DNA from: Acidimicrobiales bacterium
GTDB taxonomy: Bacteria > Actinomycetota > Acidimicrobiia > Acidimicrobiales > Aldehydirespiratoraceae
Direction of reading: 5' to 3'
DNA: 64,000 bases
Assembly (NCBI GenBank): GCA_029263175.1
Contig: JAJCXZ010000061.1
Coordinates: 1 to 64,000, forward strand
In this document: one piece after another, positions 6,543-12,411 of the stretch
Numbering within the stretch: position 1 is the stretch's first letter
Layout of the letters: each line of letters begins with the position of its first letter
Translations under genes and position numbers: made by a program
The notes under the pieces: model-generated
What the model saw: the letters and a program-made list of their open reading frames with translations, nothing else
Told to the model about the DNA's origin: nothing
Databases searched by the model: none

Positions 6543-8744
6543 CTAGCTGGCGCCAGTACCCAAGTCAGCGAGGATGTCCTGCAACGAGCGCAGACCTTGG
6601 GCGAGAGACTCGACGAGTGCGGCGAGTTCGGTGTCACCGACCTCTACCGTGATCGGCACATCGAGCTTGATCGGCACGTCGGTGGCCACCGGGACGGTCT
6701 CATCGATCGGAATGTCGACCACGAGGTCGATCGGTACGTCGAGGTTGACTGGCACACTCACATCGACGGGGACGTCGAATCCCAACGGGGTGCCGACCCG
6801 GATGGTGGTATCGATGGTCTCATTGATCGGGATCGATGTCTGGATCGGCACCTCGACCACACGGCGGATCACCACGTCGGTCTCGATGCGCACCGTCTCG
6901 TCGACCGCGACATTGAACTCCAGAGTCGAACCCGCGAACGTATCGAGTCCGGCGATGGCCGATTCGAGCCCACCCGACACGGTGGGCTGGAGGTCGAGCA
7001 GTTGGTCGGTGAAGCCCTGCACCTGCGAAGCGAAGAGCGCCGACCCTGCTTCGACGCGAGCAAGATCATCCTGGGTCGTCACCAGCGCAGTACGGGTCTC
7101 GTCGAGATCCTCTGACAGTCGGCCGATCCACACGAACGCGCCAACTGCGACAACCACCATGGCAACGGCGAGACCGCCGGCCGCGAACACGAGGCGTCGA
7201 TTCAGGGATTGGATCATGGGGTTCTCCTCGGTCGTGGGTGGAAGCGGGGCTCGAGCCGGGCGCATTGCCACGGCGATGGCCAAGCCGACAAGCGTGACCA
7301 CGCCGGTGACGAGAAATGTCTCGCCGATCGCGTCGGTGGTCAGTGACTGCTGAGCGTCGATCAGTGCTGTTTCGAAACCGGGATCGGTGATGGCCGGGAG
7401 ATTGATGCCACCGCGCAGCGAATTGAACCGGGCAAGGGCCCAGGCCGTAAGGGCAGCGAGGCCGACGCTGAGACCGAGGAGGCGAACCACCATGACCGAA
7501 GATGCGGCCGCGCCACGTTTGTCGGGGTCGGCCTCATCGACCACCGCCGAAGTGGTCGGGGCCACCGTGAGCCCGAGGCCGCAGCCCAGCAGTGCCAGCA
7601 TGACAGCGAGCGTCGGCGTGCTCGTGTTCGCGGTCCACGTCAGCCCCATCGCCGCGTACGCAAGCGTCACCGCTCCCATGCCAAGAAGGACCGGCCGACG
7701 GGTACCGGAGTCCTCTGCCAAGCGTCCGCCGGCATACGACATCGCAGCCATTCCGGCGGTCATCGCCGAGAGCAGCCAACCAGCAACCACGGCGGACCGC
7801 TCGAGGTCGATCTCCACCGCGTTGACGAGAATCGGGACGTCGACCATGGCGACGACGAGTGCCGCACCAACGATGAAGTTCACGATGAGCGCTACCTTGA
7901 CCGCCCGACCCTTGAGCAGCCCGCGCTCGATCACCGGGTCCGGGTGGGTGCGCTGATGGGTGACGAATGCCCAGCCGAGTCCGATCGCGATGACGTACAT
8001 CCAGCGGAAATCCGGGCCTCCGCTCGCGCCGGTCAGCTGATCGAGACCGCTGACGCTTTGCACCTCAGCGTTGCCGAGGAGTGCGACATCAAGCGAGATG
8101 AGGGCGCCCGTGAGCAGGCCGGCGCCTGCCCAATCGACCGATCGGGTGCGGTCGGCAACTGCGTGATCGCGCAACGCCCACCGCGCCCAAGCGAGTCCAC
8201 CGAGGGCGAGCGGGATATTGAGCCAGAACTGCAGACGCCAATCGAAGAACCGCACGAGCATCGCGCCGTAGAGCGGACCCCATACCCAGCCGAGCGTCTC
8301 GATCGCGGCGAGCGCACCAAGCGCCCGAGCCCGCCGAGCTTCGGGGTACACGTCGCCGACCACGGCCAGCGCAACCGGCACCATGGCGCCACCGCCAATT
8401 GCCGTGAGCACGCGCCCGACGAGGAACGGGCCCAGGGTGTTCGACAATGGGATGACGATCGTACCAACCAGGAAAATCAGGTACGCCACCGTGAACACCC
8501 GCCGGCGGCCGTAGACGTCGCTGAGTCGGCCGGCGATCGGCATGACGGCGACGAACGCGATCAGATACGCGTTGACCACCCATGACGCTTCGTCCAGTCC
8601 GTCGGGGAGAACGAGGCCGAGGTCGTTGATGATCGGGCGAAGCATCGTGGTGACCACGGTGAGGTCGTCGGCTGCGACGAACACGGCAAACGCCACCGCG
8701 GCGAGGATCGCCTTCGGCGAACGAGACTCGGTTGCGGCAGTCAT
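6543..8744 (-). CDS. MFS exporter (P55/EmrB-like) with C-terminal single-span, VPI-rich extension
   Basis: The protein has 733 residues. Residues 1 to about 500 form a drug:H+ antiporter of the 14-helix type, with the loop motif GRLSDVYGRRR. Around residue 515 a new membrane span (RLVFAAGGLAVAMVVVAVGAFVW) begins, followed by a short coiled-coil-like stretch and then about 90 residues of alternating Val/Pro/Ile segments (for example DVPIDLVVDIPIDETVPVATDVPI) that probably lie outside the membrane. An in-frame ATG at 7217 (residue 510) has a strong GAGGAG site upstream, so the extension may also be made alone. The start overlaps the LprG-like gene (ATGA), matching the mycobacterial lprG-Rv1410c (P55) operon, which exports triacylglycerides and glycolipids. 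Confidence 0.85.
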   Translation of the reverse strand: MTAATESRSPKAILAAVAFAVFVAADDLTVVTTMLRPIINDLGLVLPDGLDEASWVVNAYLIAFVAVMPIAGRLSDVYGRRRVFTVAYLIFLVGTIVIPLSNTLGPFLVGRVLTAIGGGAMVPVALAVVGDVYPEARRARALGALAAIETLGWVWGPLYGAMLVRFFDWRLQFWLNIPLALGGLAWARWALRDHAVADRTRSVDWAGAGLLTGALISLDVALLGNAEVQSVSGLDQLTGASGGPDFRWMYVIAIGLGWAFVTHQRTHPDPVIERGLLKGRAVKVALIVNFIVGAALVVAMVDVPILVNAVEIDLERSAVVAGWLLSAMTAGMAAMSYAGGRLAEDSGTRRPVLLGMGAVTLAYAAMGLTWTANTSTPTLAVMLALLGCGLGLTVAPTTSAVVDEADPDKRGAAASSVMVVRLLGLSVGLAALTAWALARFNSLRGGINLPAITDPGFETALIDAQQSLTTDAIGETFLVTGVVTLVGLAIAVAMRPARAPLPPTTEENPMIQSLNRRLVFAAGGLAVAMVVVAVGAFVWIGRLSEDLDETRTALVTTQDDLARVEAGSALFASQVQGFTDQLLDLQPTVSGGLESAIAGLDTFAGSTLEFNVAVDETVRIETDVVIRRVVEVPIQTSIPINETIDTTIRVGTPLGFDVPVDVSVPVNLDVPIDLVVDIPIDETVPVATDVPIKLDVPITVEVGDTELAALVESLAQGLRSLQDILADLGTGAS

Positions 8745-9481
8745 CGGTCCGCCCCCAACGGCGGCTCGATCCGGACCGGCACGTCGAACTCTGAGAGGCG
8801 CAGGTCCCACGAGGTTCCATCATGGGCCACGACCAGACGCGTGACGTGGGCCGCTGTGGGGTGCAACCACAGGTCGATCTCGTGATCGGTCCCGTCGACG
8901 AGGCCGGCGGTGACGGCACCCAGTTGGTCGCCGGGGGCGGTTGCTCTCAGGTGGTAGCGGTCGCCATCCTGGTCGACGAGTTCTGCATCCGCGAGCGACT
9001 GGAGGAATGGCTTCCAGGCACCCTCGGGGTCAAAGAAGTCGCGCGGGTCTAGGTCATACCCCGTCGGCAGCGGCTCGAATACGCCAGTGATCGGGTTCGA
9101 CAGCCAGATCGTGGCATCGACGGCCACAGCCCCCAACTCGGTCACGAGAGAGCCGTCGACGGTTACGGTGAGCAATGCCTCGGCCGACGTCGGCACCTGC
9201 AACCGTCCCACCGCAGAATCGAGGGAAAGGCTGTTGGCCGGATCAATGTGGACCGGCGCTCCCGAACGCCGGAGCTCGAACCGCACGCTGGTGACTGCAG
9301 CCATGGCATCAGCTGCGTCGTCGATGAGCGTGTCCGGATCTGCCGGCAACCACTCGCCCACGACCGGGGCCTGCCCGTCGGCACCCGCGGCGCTCTCCGC
9401 CGTCGGCAGGCTGGTGATCATGCCGACGACGCCAAGGGCGACGACAAGAGCCGCCCCGAGACGATGCGTCCGGAGGCTCAT
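8741..9481 (-). CDS. LprG/LppX-like secreted lipid-carrier protein without a lipobox
   Basis: This 246-residue protein has an N-terminal signal sequence (hydrophobic GAALVVALGVVGMITSL) followed by the LppX_LprAFG pattern of alternating beta strands. Relatives carry lipids across the periplasm for the partner MFS pump. It lies directly upstream of that pump with a four-base overlap, which supports the assignment. Mycobacterial LprG has a Cys lipobox; none is present here (the cleavage region reads AESAAGADG), so the protein is predicted to be released, or held by an uncleaved signal. The family call rests on gene pairing plus overall fold pattern. Confidence 0.7.
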   Translation of the reverse strand: MSLRTHRLGAALVVALGVVGMITSLPTAESAAGADGQAPVVGEWLPADPDTLIDDAADAMAAVTSVRFELRRSGAPVHIDPANSLSLDSAVGRLQVPTSAEALLTVTVDGSLVTELGAVAVDATIWLSNPITGVFEPLPTGYDLDPRDFFDPEGAWKPFLQSLADAELVDQDGDRYHLRATAPGDQLGAVTAGLVDGTDHEIDLWLHPTAAHVTRLVVAHDGTSWDLRLSEFDVPVRIEPPLGADR

Positions 9482-9547: not shown

Positions 9548-10099
9548 ATGACACAGACGACACGACCTTCGATCGGAGAACCTGCACCGACGATCGATCT
9601 GGTCGATCAGGATGGCCGACCCTGGTCGCTGGACGATCGGCGTGGCCGGCACGTGGTGGTGATCTTTCACCGCCACATTCATTGACTGCCGTGCGCCGCC
9701 CATGCGGTCGCCGTGCGCGATCGTCTCGATGAACTCGGCCCGGACACCGACGTGGCGCTGATCACGTTCACGAAGCCGGACCGTCTCGACTCCTACCTCA
9801 CCACCAACAACTTGCCGTTCGCGGTGCTTCTGGATCCTGAGCGCAGCAGCTATCGCTCGTATGGCATCGGCCGAACATCGGTGATGCGGGCCTGGGGCGC
9901 TCGCGCCGCGTCGCGCTACGTCCAACTCTTCGCCCAGGGCCGATGGCGGGACCTCCGCCGACCCACCGAGGACACGCTGCAGCTCGGCGGTGACTTCGTC
10001 GTCGCCCCCGACGGCACCCTCGCGTACGGATTCTGGAGCGAGGGCCCCGATGACCGCCCAGGGGTCGATGAACTGATCGCCGCGATCTCGCTCGACTGA
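9548..10099 (+). CDS. AhpC/TSA-type redoxin, candidate selenoprotein (UGA = Sec46)
   Basis: Reading from ATG 9548, the frame stays coding through an in-frame TGA at 9683-9685 and ends at 10099, giving 183 residues. The N-terminal half is IGEPAPTIDLVDQDGRPWSLDD then VVVIFHRHIH-U-LPC, a thioredoxin fold with the redox motif U46-L-P-C49 where peroxiredoxin-like homologues have C-x-x-C. After the TGA the fold continues (DVALITF, LPFAVLLDPERSSYRSYGIGRTS, GGDFVVAPDGTLAYGFWSE). A hairpin with a GGUC loop begins about 14 nt after the TGA. A simple nonsense mutation is the alternative, but UGA at exactly the first redox Cys, the intact downstream frame and the hairpin favour selenocysteine. It is divergent from the LprG-like gene. 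Confidence 0.78.
9697..9719 (+). promoter_or_regulatory. Candidate bacterial SECIS in the redoxin gene
   Basis: Counting the U of UGA as 1, C23-G28 and G22-C29 close a loop GGUC at 24-27. U21 is unpaired opposite C30-G31, then A20-U32 and C19-G33 pair, followed by a C-C mismatch and three more pairs. The E. coli fdhF element has the same GGUC loop at 22-25 and a bulged U below a short upper stem, the features SelB reads. A competing fold with a CCAU loop (CCGC with GCGG) is also possible. Confidence 0.62.
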
Positions 10100-10105
10100 C
10101 CCGGG

Positions 10106-11062
10106 TTACCGACCTCGCGGGATGACCTCGTAGCCGGACTCCTCGGGTTCGTCGTCGACGATCTCGGCGGGGAAGCCGTCAGCGAGAATCGAGAGACCGG
10201 TGGCGTCCTCGAGGCGACGAATGATGTTGGGCGACCACTCACGTTCGCCGTAGCGCTCCATCCCGTCCTTGAAGATGTCGATCAGCACCGGCGAAACCTC
10301 AAGAGGCACACCTGCTCGATCGGCGACCTGCTGAAAGAGGGAGATGTCCTTCACGACGAGATCCATGGTGAAGTTGATGTCTCGACTGCCGTTCAGCGTG
10401 ACCTGGCTCTCGGTCTCGTGCACGAACGAGTTGCCCGACGAGATACGGATCGCTTCGTAGGTGGTGCTGAGATCCATGCCCGCAGCCTTCGAGGTCACCA
10501 TCGCCTCGGCGAGCGTGATCAGATTGGCGGTGGCGAGATAGTTCGTCATCACCTTGAGCACCGACGCCGATCCGAGTTCACCCGTGTGCAGGATGCGGCG
10601 ACCCATGGTGGTGAGGATCGGCAGCATCCGCTCGAAGACGTCGCGATCGCAACCCGCGAAGATTGCGATGTTGCCGGTCGCCGCTCGATGACAGCCGCCC
10701 GAGACCGGACAGTCCACCGGCGACGCGCCAACCGCCCGCACCTTCTCACCGAGGCGCTTGACCTCGGCCTCATCCGTGGTCGACATCTCCGCCCAGATCT
10801 TCCCCGGACCGAACCCGGCGAGTAGACCTTCGTCCGCCTCCATCACCGCAGCCGACGCCGCCGGCGAGGGAAGGCACGTGATGATCAGCTCGCACGCCTC
10901 GGCCATCTCCTTCGGCGAATCGGCCCAGTGCGCCCCTTGATCGAGGAACGGTTGGGCAACGCTTCGGTCGAGGTCCCGCACGGTGAGGTCGAACCCATTG
11001 CGCAGAAGCGATCCCGAGAGCTTTCCGCCGACGTTGCCGAGTCCGATGAATCCGACCTTCAT
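10106..11062 (-). CDS. 3-hydroxyisobutyrate dehydrogenase family NAD(P) oxidoreductase
   Basis: This 318-residue beta-hydroxyacid dehydrogenase begins with the Rossmann motif GFIGLGNVGGKL. The substrate signature DCPVSGG (usually DAPVSGG) and the helix with the catalytic Lys (SASVLKVMTNYL) are present. The family oxidises small beta-hydroxyacids such as 3-hydroxyisobutyrate, tartronate semialdehyde or related compounds; the exact substrate is not clear. Upstream, about 70 bases from the start, lies a TGGACGCTTGTCCA palindrome also found before the 43-48 kb operon, suggesting shared control. It converges with the redoxin gene, leaving six bases between stops. Confidence 0.88.
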   Translation of the reverse strand: MKVGFIGLGNVGGKLSGSLLRNGFDLTVRDLDRSVAQPFLDQGAHWADSPKEMAEACELIITCLPSPAASAAVMEADEGLLAGFGPGKIWAEMSTTDEAEVKRLGEKVRAVGASPVDCPVSGGCHRAATGNIAIFAGCDRDVFERMLPILTTMGRRILHTGELGSASVLKVMTNYLATANLITLAEAMVTSKAAGMDLSTTYEAIRISSGNSFVHETESQVTLNGSRDINFTMDLVVKDISLFQQVADRAGVPLEVSPVLIDIFKDGMERYGEREWSPNIIRRLEDATGLSILADGFPAEIVDDEPEESGYEVIPRGR

Positions 11063-11129
11063 GAGTACCTCCGATCAGGTGGGCCAGGGCCCAGCGAGTG
11101 GCGAGATCGTAGGCGAGTCGGAGCCGACT

Positions 11130-11143
11130 TGGACGCTTGTCCA
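11130..11143. promoter_or_regulatory. Palindrome TGGAC-GCTT-GTCCA, likely repressor site
   Basis: A perfect 5+5 inverted repeat with a GCTT spacer sits between the divergent dehydrogenase and sigma-factor genes. The same sequence with two more matching bases on each arm is found at 48327. Its form fits a dimeric (for example TetR-type) repressor, which is inference; no TetR gene lies in the window. Confidence 0.45.
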
Positions 11144-11191
11144 GCAAAGCCGAGTCCCCCGTCCGCTGGTTGGGAGGTGAGCTCGGCCATC

Positions 11192-11782
11192 ATGATCGGC
11201 GTGGACGAGATGGTGGAGAGATTCCGTGCGGGTGATCCCGACGCGATTCGCGAGGTCTACCGTCGCCACGCGGGCGCGGTTTTCACCGTCGCTCGTTCGA
11301 TCACCAATGATCGTGAACTCGCCGCCGATGTCCTGCAACAGGTCTTCGTCAAGGCGTGGAGGGCCGCCGCCGGGTTCGACGGCTCGCGGGACCTGGCGCC
11401 CTGGCTCTATGCCATCGCCCGTCGAACCGCGATCGATGCAATCCGCAAGGAGCACCGCCCGACTCAGGGAGGCCACGAACCCGAGGTGGAGAGCGTTGTT
11501 CACACCATGTCGTTCGAACGCACGTGGGAGGTCCATGAGGTCCGCCGAGCCATCGACGAGCTTCCCGACACCGAACGCGAGGTCGTTCGCCTCAGCCACC
11601 TCGAGGGCATGACCCATGAGCAGATCGCCGGAAGACTTGATGTGCCCATGGGCACGGTGAAGTCACGTTCGAGCCGCGCCCACAAACGGCTCGCCGCCGC
11701 GCTTCGACACCTGCGCGATGAATCCCCGGATCCCGCGAACCAAACGGAGCTTCGTACCGTAGAGACGGACGAGGACACATGA
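11192..11782 (+). CDS. ECF-family RNA polymerase sigma factor
   Basis: This 196-residue sigma-70 factor has only regions 2 and 4, as ECF sigmas do. Region 2 holds the YRRHAGAVFTVARSI and LAADVLQQVFVKAWR segments, and region 4 the helix-turn-helix YE-type sequence MTHEQIAGRLDVPMGTVKSRSSRAHKRL. The start at ATG 11192 follows a GGGAGGTGA ribosome site. It overlaps the anti-sigma gene by four bases, the usual co-regulated pair. The regulon cannot be read here. Confidence 0.93.
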   Translation: MIGVDEMVERFRAGDPDAIREVYRRHAGAVFTVARSITNDRELAADVLQQVFVKAWRAAAGFDGSRDLAPWLYAIARRTAIDAIRKEHRPTQGGHEPEVESVVHTMSFERTWEVHEVRRAIDELPDTEREVVRLSHLEGMTHEQIAGRLDVPMGTVKSRSSRAHKRLAAALRHLRDESPDPANQTELRTVETDEDT

Positions 11783-12411
11783 GCGGCGACACACCGATCG
11801 ATCCAATCGACTCGCTCGGCGAGCCGACCGAGGCTGAGCTGGCCGCGCTGGCCCAACTGCTCGGAAACGGCGCGCTATGGCACGAGCTCCCCGCAGGGGT
11901 CGAGGACGCCGTCATCGAAACGATCGGTGCCGAGGTCGATCTCTCGGCGCCGGCCTCTACTCGTCAGCGTCCCCGCTGGCTGATCGTTGCCGCAGCCATC
12001 GTGGTGGCATTTGGTCTCGGCACCCTGGTTTCCCTTCTCGGCGCGGACGACCCCGACGGACCCGGCGTCACGGAGTTTGCGCTCGCCTCGACCGACCTCG
12101 CCGCCGACGCCACTGGCACGGTCGAACTCGCCGAGCTCCGCAACGGGCTCCGCATCGTTCTCACCGTCGACTCGCTGCCCCCCGCACCGGAGGGGCAGTT
12201 CTACGAAGCCTGGATGCGCACACCGGACTCCGGCGTCTCCGCCGGCACATTCCACATGCGCGGCGAGAGTGGCTCAATCGAACTCTGGGCGGGCGTCCTC
12301 AGCGACACCTACCCGATCTTCTCGATCACTCTCGAAGATGAGGACGGCGACGCATCGTCCTCGGGCCAAGTCGTCATGAAGGCCGACCTCACCCAACCCC
12401 TCGACGACTAG
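11779..12411 (+). CDS. RskA-like anti-sigma factor
   Basis: This 210-residue membrane protein has one span (WLIVAAAIVVAFGLGTLVSLL, about residues 67-87). The external C-terminal half matches the anti-sigma-K factor domain: ALASTDLAADATGTVELAEL, then LPPAPEGQFYEAWM. The cytoplasmic part is short and lacks the HxxxCxxC zinc motif, as in RskA itself. It should hold the upstream ECF sigma inactive until a periplasmic signal triggers proteolysis. Its TAG stop uses the first G of a type A palindromic repeat. Confidence 0.85.
   Translation: MSGDTPIDPIDSLGEPTEAELAALAQLLGNGALWHELPAGVEDAVIETIGAEVDLSAPASTRQRPRWLIVAAAIVVAFGLGTLVSLLGADDPDGPGVTEFALASTDLAADATGTVELAELRNGLRIVLTVDSLPPAPEGQFYEAWMRTPDSGVSAGTFHMRGESGSIELWAGVLSDTYPIFSITLEDEDGDASSSGQVVMKADLTQPLDD

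Follow-up and report, generated by a model that had tools for sequence, protein, structure and literature searches.

Peroxiredoxins carry the active-site motif PxxxT/SxxC, in which the peroxidatic Cys is the last residue. In the selenocysteine (Sec) peroxiredoxins, Sec comes last in a TxxU motif and takes the peroxidatic place. SelL has a UxxU motif whose two Sec residues form a diselenide. The name SelL occurs in the consulted portion of PMC2398784, which also lists 225 marine sequences as 'Prx-like 1, UxxC'. The Prx-like thiol:disulfide oxidoreductases, with a PF00578 domain and a UxxC or UxxU motif, are described as an established selenoprotein group in the consulted portions of PMC13188914 and PMC9312934.

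The window analyzed here is a stretch of 64,000 nucleotides from an Acidimicrobiales bacterium. It contains a redoxin gene that can be compared with these systems through the following features.

9548 to 10099, plus strand: redoxin gene with an ATG start and a TGA terminator, very probably a selenoprotein gene (183 aa)
9683 to 9685, plus strand: predicted Sec codon UGA, residue 46 of HRHIH-U-LPC
9692 to 9694, plus strand: codon (TGC) of Cys49, the partner of Sec46 in the U-x-x-C pair

Translated, this frame has 183 residues; a single TGA interrupts it, at residue 46 (FHRHIH-U-LPC), and another TGA ends it. Both sides of the UGA fall within one AhpC-TSA domain (PF00578, 62.7 bits, residues 9-159; gathering score 26). 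The domain score and the UxxC active site are both those of the Prx-like thiol:disulfide oxidoreductase selenoproteins, with which the redoxin shares its Pfam domain and motif as far as the consulted portions of PMC13188914, PMC9312934 and PMC2398784 describe them. The HRHxx-U-LPC signature and the spread in Acidimicrobiia are not among the descriptions in those portions, the comparison being one of description and not residue by residue. The redoxin is also a near full-length match to NF040769, SelL-related redox protein (117.5 bits, E 4.9e-34), just below the curated cut-off of 120, and all 51 aligned redoxin members match this model at E ≤ 0.001 (best E 8.3e-47). The consulted text of PMC13188914 makes no mention of NF040769, a full-text literature search found the name 'SelL-related redox protein' in no paper, and a PHROGs search returned only a weak match, of unknown function. 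A related family name and the active-site place are common to SelL and the redoxin. However, whereas SelL has two Sec residues, the redoxin has one internal TGA and its second active-site residue is Cys49, which sets it apart from SelL proper. With the Sec peroxiredoxins it shares the thioredoxin/peroxiredoxin fold, but its Sec replaces the Thr three residues before the peroxidatic place. The HRHxx-U-LPC redoxins are therefore best described as a new subfamily of a known bacterial selenoprotein kind (Prx-like, UxxC), an assignment that is well supported. The finding adds a Sec-rich subfamily from Acidimicrobiia, an actinobacterial class for which the full-text literature search yielded no paper that mentions it together with both selenoproteins and selenocysteine. 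Standard annotation halts at the UGA, so that such a gene would be missed or truncated.

A lone in-frame TGA in one genome would look the same if it were a nonsense mutation or a sequencing error in an ordinary redoxin gene, and the question is how relatives read at this place. In the same family, 18 of 51 genomes (the window's own counted) match the redoxin at E ≤ 1e-10; all 18 have exactly one internal TGA, which the tblastn alignments put at the identical place. Of 397 genomes sampled from the order, 40 have a match at E ≤ 1e-20, each of the 40 with one TGA; ten of these matches had no assigned locus, of which two were read earlier (L045 and L046) and eight were counted from the stop column alone. 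Ten of 296 genomes of the class match at E ≤ 1e-15. Nine have one TGA, and the tenth, L044, is a Cys form with a continuous frame, in which TGC occupies the place of Sec46 (HRHLA-C-LPC). The family, order and class samplings overlap. The order and class samples suggest that the redoxin occurs in many Acidimicrobiia genomes. The first-pass annotation had proposed looking in homologues for Cys at position 46 and for the fate of the downstream frame; the former is found in L044, and the frame is retained past the UGA in the family and order matches. An in-frame UGA, coding conserved on either side of it and Cys or Sec in homologues are thus all present, as expected of a bacterial selenoprotein.

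The phylum sample gave 41 matches in 39 of 396 genomes, 25 with one TGA and 16 with none. Seven of the TGA-free matches were read, namely the Cys forms L066, L068 and L074 and four PrxQ-like proteins. Besides Cys forms and PrxQ-type proteins, the phylum matches include two further groups, LRHAG-U-LIC and LRHYG-U-xFC, whose TGA has the same position. Excluded from the Sec counts were L037 (Kiritimatiellales, PrxQ-like) and L070, L071, L076 and L077 (TxxC, PrxQ-like); in L075 the tblastn alignment had misplaced Sec, and its position was manually moved back by three codons. A 75-row tree groups the HRHxx-U-LPC sequences in a clade of 50 rows (the HRH clade; support 99/96) with one Cys member. L034 was omitted from the tree and from the protein alignment, A5, which comprises 51 of the 76 prepared Cys/Sec rows. 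With L034 counted, the HRH-clade loci read have TGA in 50 of 51 and TGC in one. The redoxin TGA also occurs in two MAGs, L035 (Acidimicrobiia) and L036 (Miltoncostaea); L035 and L078, the latter from a genome in the same order as the window, encode identical proteins. Similarity among the HRH-clade genes runs past the internal UGA to about the same end, where the terminators are TGA (42/50), TAG (5/50) and TAA (3/50). L034, one of the 18 family homologues and from the same genus, does end early: similarity is lost after about residue 109 and the frame ends 78 codons past the UGA, with the TGA region intact, perhaps owing to a frameshift or an assembly error. Given the same TGA in every family and order match and the conservation beyond it to a common end, the probability that the TGA is a nonsense mutation or an error is negligible.

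The structural model bears on a second alternative. Without read-through, the frame from 9548 would yield a stub of 45 residues, and an ORF of 128 aa starting at GTG 9713 (9713-10099) is available downstream, so that the locus could be taken for two genes, a leader peptide and a restarting ORF, possibly regulatory. An AlphaFold2 model based on 51 window and locus sequences (mean pLDDT 94.7, pTM 0.90) has a peroxiredoxin-like fold, in which the UGA site falls between strand 35-40 and helix 47-58 of a continuous thioredoxin fold. A two-gene arrangement would split this fold at the UGA, and the Cys homologue L044 has one continuous frame; we consider it very improbable. The first-pass annotation had described the frame from 9548 as coding on both sides of TGA 9683-9685, which the single AhpC-TSA domain and the conserved downstream frame bear out; its reading of a selenoprotein with a thioredoxin fold and a U-x-x-C motif is likewise upheld.

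The host genome was searched for the means to insert Sec. It has a tRNA-Sec at 64 bits (cut-off 47), which ARAGORN reports as SeC with anticodon tca. On contig C75, selA (SelA, PF03841, 312.8 bits) adjoins selB, whose product combines a GTP-binding domain with a winged helix (PF09107, 56.8 bits). The selD product scores 355 bits and reads HGAG-U-GCK through an in-frame TGA. SelA, SelB, SelD and tRNA-Sec are thus all present, as a bacterial selenoprotein would require. Of 14 control genomes, five exceed the cut-off for tRNA-Sec and two that for SelB, and since the controls are mostly below threshold the cut-offs discriminate. SelB is above cut-off in 48 of 51 family genomes, as against 18 of 51 for the redoxin, so other selenoproteins should keep Sec decoding in the remaining family genomes. 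The selD gene itself (G000 contig C3:15979-16917, L048) is a candidate selenoprotein gene, and a hairpin with a GGTCG loop follows its own TGA.

A UGA followed by C is a leaky read-through context, and C follows the UGA in 50 of 50 clade members, which would suit insertion of another amino acid, e.g. Trp, by near-cognate read-through or under a reassigned code. Yet TGA also serves as terminator, both of the gene itself and of 42 of the 50 clade genes, L044 has Cys at the aligned position, and the Sec machinery of the genome is complete. Reading of the UGA as an amino acid other than Sec is accordingly highly improbable. Taken with the conserved frame and UGA, the Cys counterpart, the confident fold model and the RNA-level constraint described below, the machinery leads us to infer that gene 9548-10099 very probably encodes a selenoprotein with Sec46 read from the in-frame UGA. 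The ribosome would insert Sec at UGA 9683-9685 guided by a stem-loop about 20-30 nt downstream, with SelA, SelB, SelD and tRNA-Sec of the same genome supplying the insertion, and the product would be a thioredoxin-fold 'SelL-related' redoxin.

What reaction would such a protein carry out? The top Foldseek matches include the peroxiredoxins Bcp4, Bcp1 and AhpE, the best PDB match being Bcp4. A profile search of solved structures also matched 9us9, a prostamide/prostaglandin F synthase, at E 3.5e-12 over profile positions 17-178. When the redoxin is aligned with a Bcp protein, Arg42 falls at the Pro of PxxxT/SxxC, Sec46 at its Ser/Thr and Cys49 at the peroxidatic Cys. The aligned motif in the redoxin is RxxxUxxC, which departs from the classical peroxiredoxin pattern with its peroxidatic Cys or Sec last. 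G23, R42, residue 46 and D142 are invariant in the 51 alignment rows and Cys49 is kept in 50 of 51; the redoxin alignment has no conserved Cys besides the active site. The first-pass annotation had placed the UGA at the first redox Cys of an AhpC/TSA-type protein. This stands for the first position of U-x-x-C but not for the peroxidatic Cys, three residues before which the Sec lies. With its PF00578 domain, its closest solved folds among peroxiredoxins and C49 on the peroxidatic Cys of Bcp, the same selenoprotein might act as a peroxiredoxin-type peroxidase, either with Sec46 attacking peroxide or with a peroxidatic Cys49 and a resolving Sec46. This is rather unlikely given RxxxUxxC in place of PxxxTxxC and the invariant Arg42. 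Since Sec takes the Thr position of PxxxTxxC instead of the peroxidatic one, the redoxin is likelier to be a UxxC thiol-disulfide oxidoreductase than a classical peroxiredoxin, and judged from the sequence this assignment is probably correct. As such an oxidoreductase, the redoxin would use Sec46 to attack an oxidized substrate (disulfide or peroxide), Cys49 would resolve the intermediate as a Sec46-Cys49 selenenyl-sulfide, and a cellular thiol donor would then reduce it.

Synonymous codon choice was analyzed in the 50 HRH-clade genes. Two sites stand out.

9707 to 9718, plus strand: codons 54-57 (GTC GCC GTG CGC), synonymous constraint z of -7.2, -8.1, -8.2 and -8.2
9680 to 9682, plus strand: codon 45, directly 5' of the UGA, CAT in 36 of 37 His codons, z -9.9

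Codon 47 is constrained as well (z -4.2). Codons 142 and 167, far from the UGA, are also past z -6, so codon freezing is not exclusive to the SECIS region. An RNA-level signal 3' of the UGA is nevertheless well supported by these alignments. At codon 45 CAT dominates, although the three remaining conserved His positions are more often CAC; the context of the UGA may affect its recoding.

Every 4-bp stem in the 60 nt from the UGA was scanned and scored against synonymous recodings of the same proteins. There are two overlapping candidates for the pairing.

9701 to 9715, plus strand: candidate SECIS hairpin H1, with GGTC at its apex (9706-9709) and further outer pairs that can form out to 9698/9718
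9708 to 9720, plus strand: stem core of alternative candidate SECIS hairpin H2, overlapping H1 and extending to 9704-9724 in the window

The H1 stem pairs columns 19-22 with 30-33 (9701-9704 with 9712-9715). It can form in 41 of 50 HRH sequences, ranking first in that clade (82% vs 23% expected), and in 16 of 22 other Sec sequences, where it is joint first (73% vs 25% expected). In the latter the stem continues beyond its outermost pair, where columns 17-35 and 18-34 show double changes, and the whole helix has 15 cells with both sides changed, a value reached in 0 of 500 shuffles. Inside the HRH clade, H1 shows zero double compensations. On the 72-sequence alignment, a long window fold (columns 5-35) likewise beats every column shuffle, both in covariation score and in the number of paired cells; column shuffles therefore partly reflect relatedness, and we relied on the synonymous recodings instead. 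H2 pairs columns 26-29 with 35-38. It is present in 33 of 50 HRH members but in 0 of 22 other Sec sequences, and three of its pairs show one double change each. Of the 50 HRH members, 44 can form H1 or a bulge-shifted H1, and 48 can form one of these or H2; among the Cys forms H1 can form in one of four. The pairing probability of H1 exceeds 0.5 in 9 of 50 HRH sequences and is near 0 in the window itself; against synonymous recodings the contrast is weak, with a mean of 0.18 vs 0.10 and 7 of 50 sequences at ≤5%.

Within the HRH clade energy does not set H1 apart, and in the window H2 is the more stable (-11.4 kcal/mol from column 13, vs -3.9 kcal/mol for H1 over 9698-9718). The bacterial SECIS model in the consulted portion of PMC13188914 has an apical loop of 3-9 nt with G in its first two positions, a spacing of 16-37 nt, an upper stem of 4-16 bp and an MFE ≤ -7.5 kcal/mol. 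By that portion, H1 fits in spacing and loop but falls short in energy, and H2 fits in the window but is confined to its 33 clade members. The 40-58 nt after the UGA folded no more favorably than their dinucleotide-shuffled counterparts (z -0.59 to 0.93), so energy by itself gives no support for a SECIS. Rfam at gathering threshold gave zero matches in the window, and a lax search of 9600-9800 gave sub-threshold matches only. The first-pass annotation had described a GGUC-loop hairpin with an unpaired U. GGTC at 9706-9709 can indeed form an apical loop, with C-G as the closing pair, but the loop is not conserved, the four columns reading GGTC in 12 and CGTC in 12 of 50 relatives and otherwise in the remainder. 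The unpaired U was not found; the bulged base of the consensus fold is C. The predicted SECIS may pair as H1 or as H2. One speculative reading is that the HRH clade is nearly Sec-obligate in Acidimicrobiia and has a two-register mRNA signal, in which either overlapping hairpin (9701-9715 or 9708-9720) might serve SelB. If so, such an element would account for the freezing of codons 54-57 better than a single hairpin does. The HRH clade offers a large gap-free aligned set for testing SECIS pairing in high-GC bacteria.

The neighborhood of the redoxin was compared across loci. Three other loci, which belong to the same genus, retain a flanking dehydrogenase, and one of them retains a lipoprotein/MFS pair as well; neither context was seen in the other loci compared. 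In the window this pair lies at 6543-9481 on the minus strand, divergent from the redoxin, and consists of a gene for an LppX/LprAFG-type lipoprotein and, after it, one for an MFS transporter, an arrangement that we take to resemble the mycobacterial lprG-p55 pair. Downstream of the redoxin region, at 10928-12411 on the plus strand, lies a pair of genes for an ECF sigma factor and an RskA-type anti-sigma factor.
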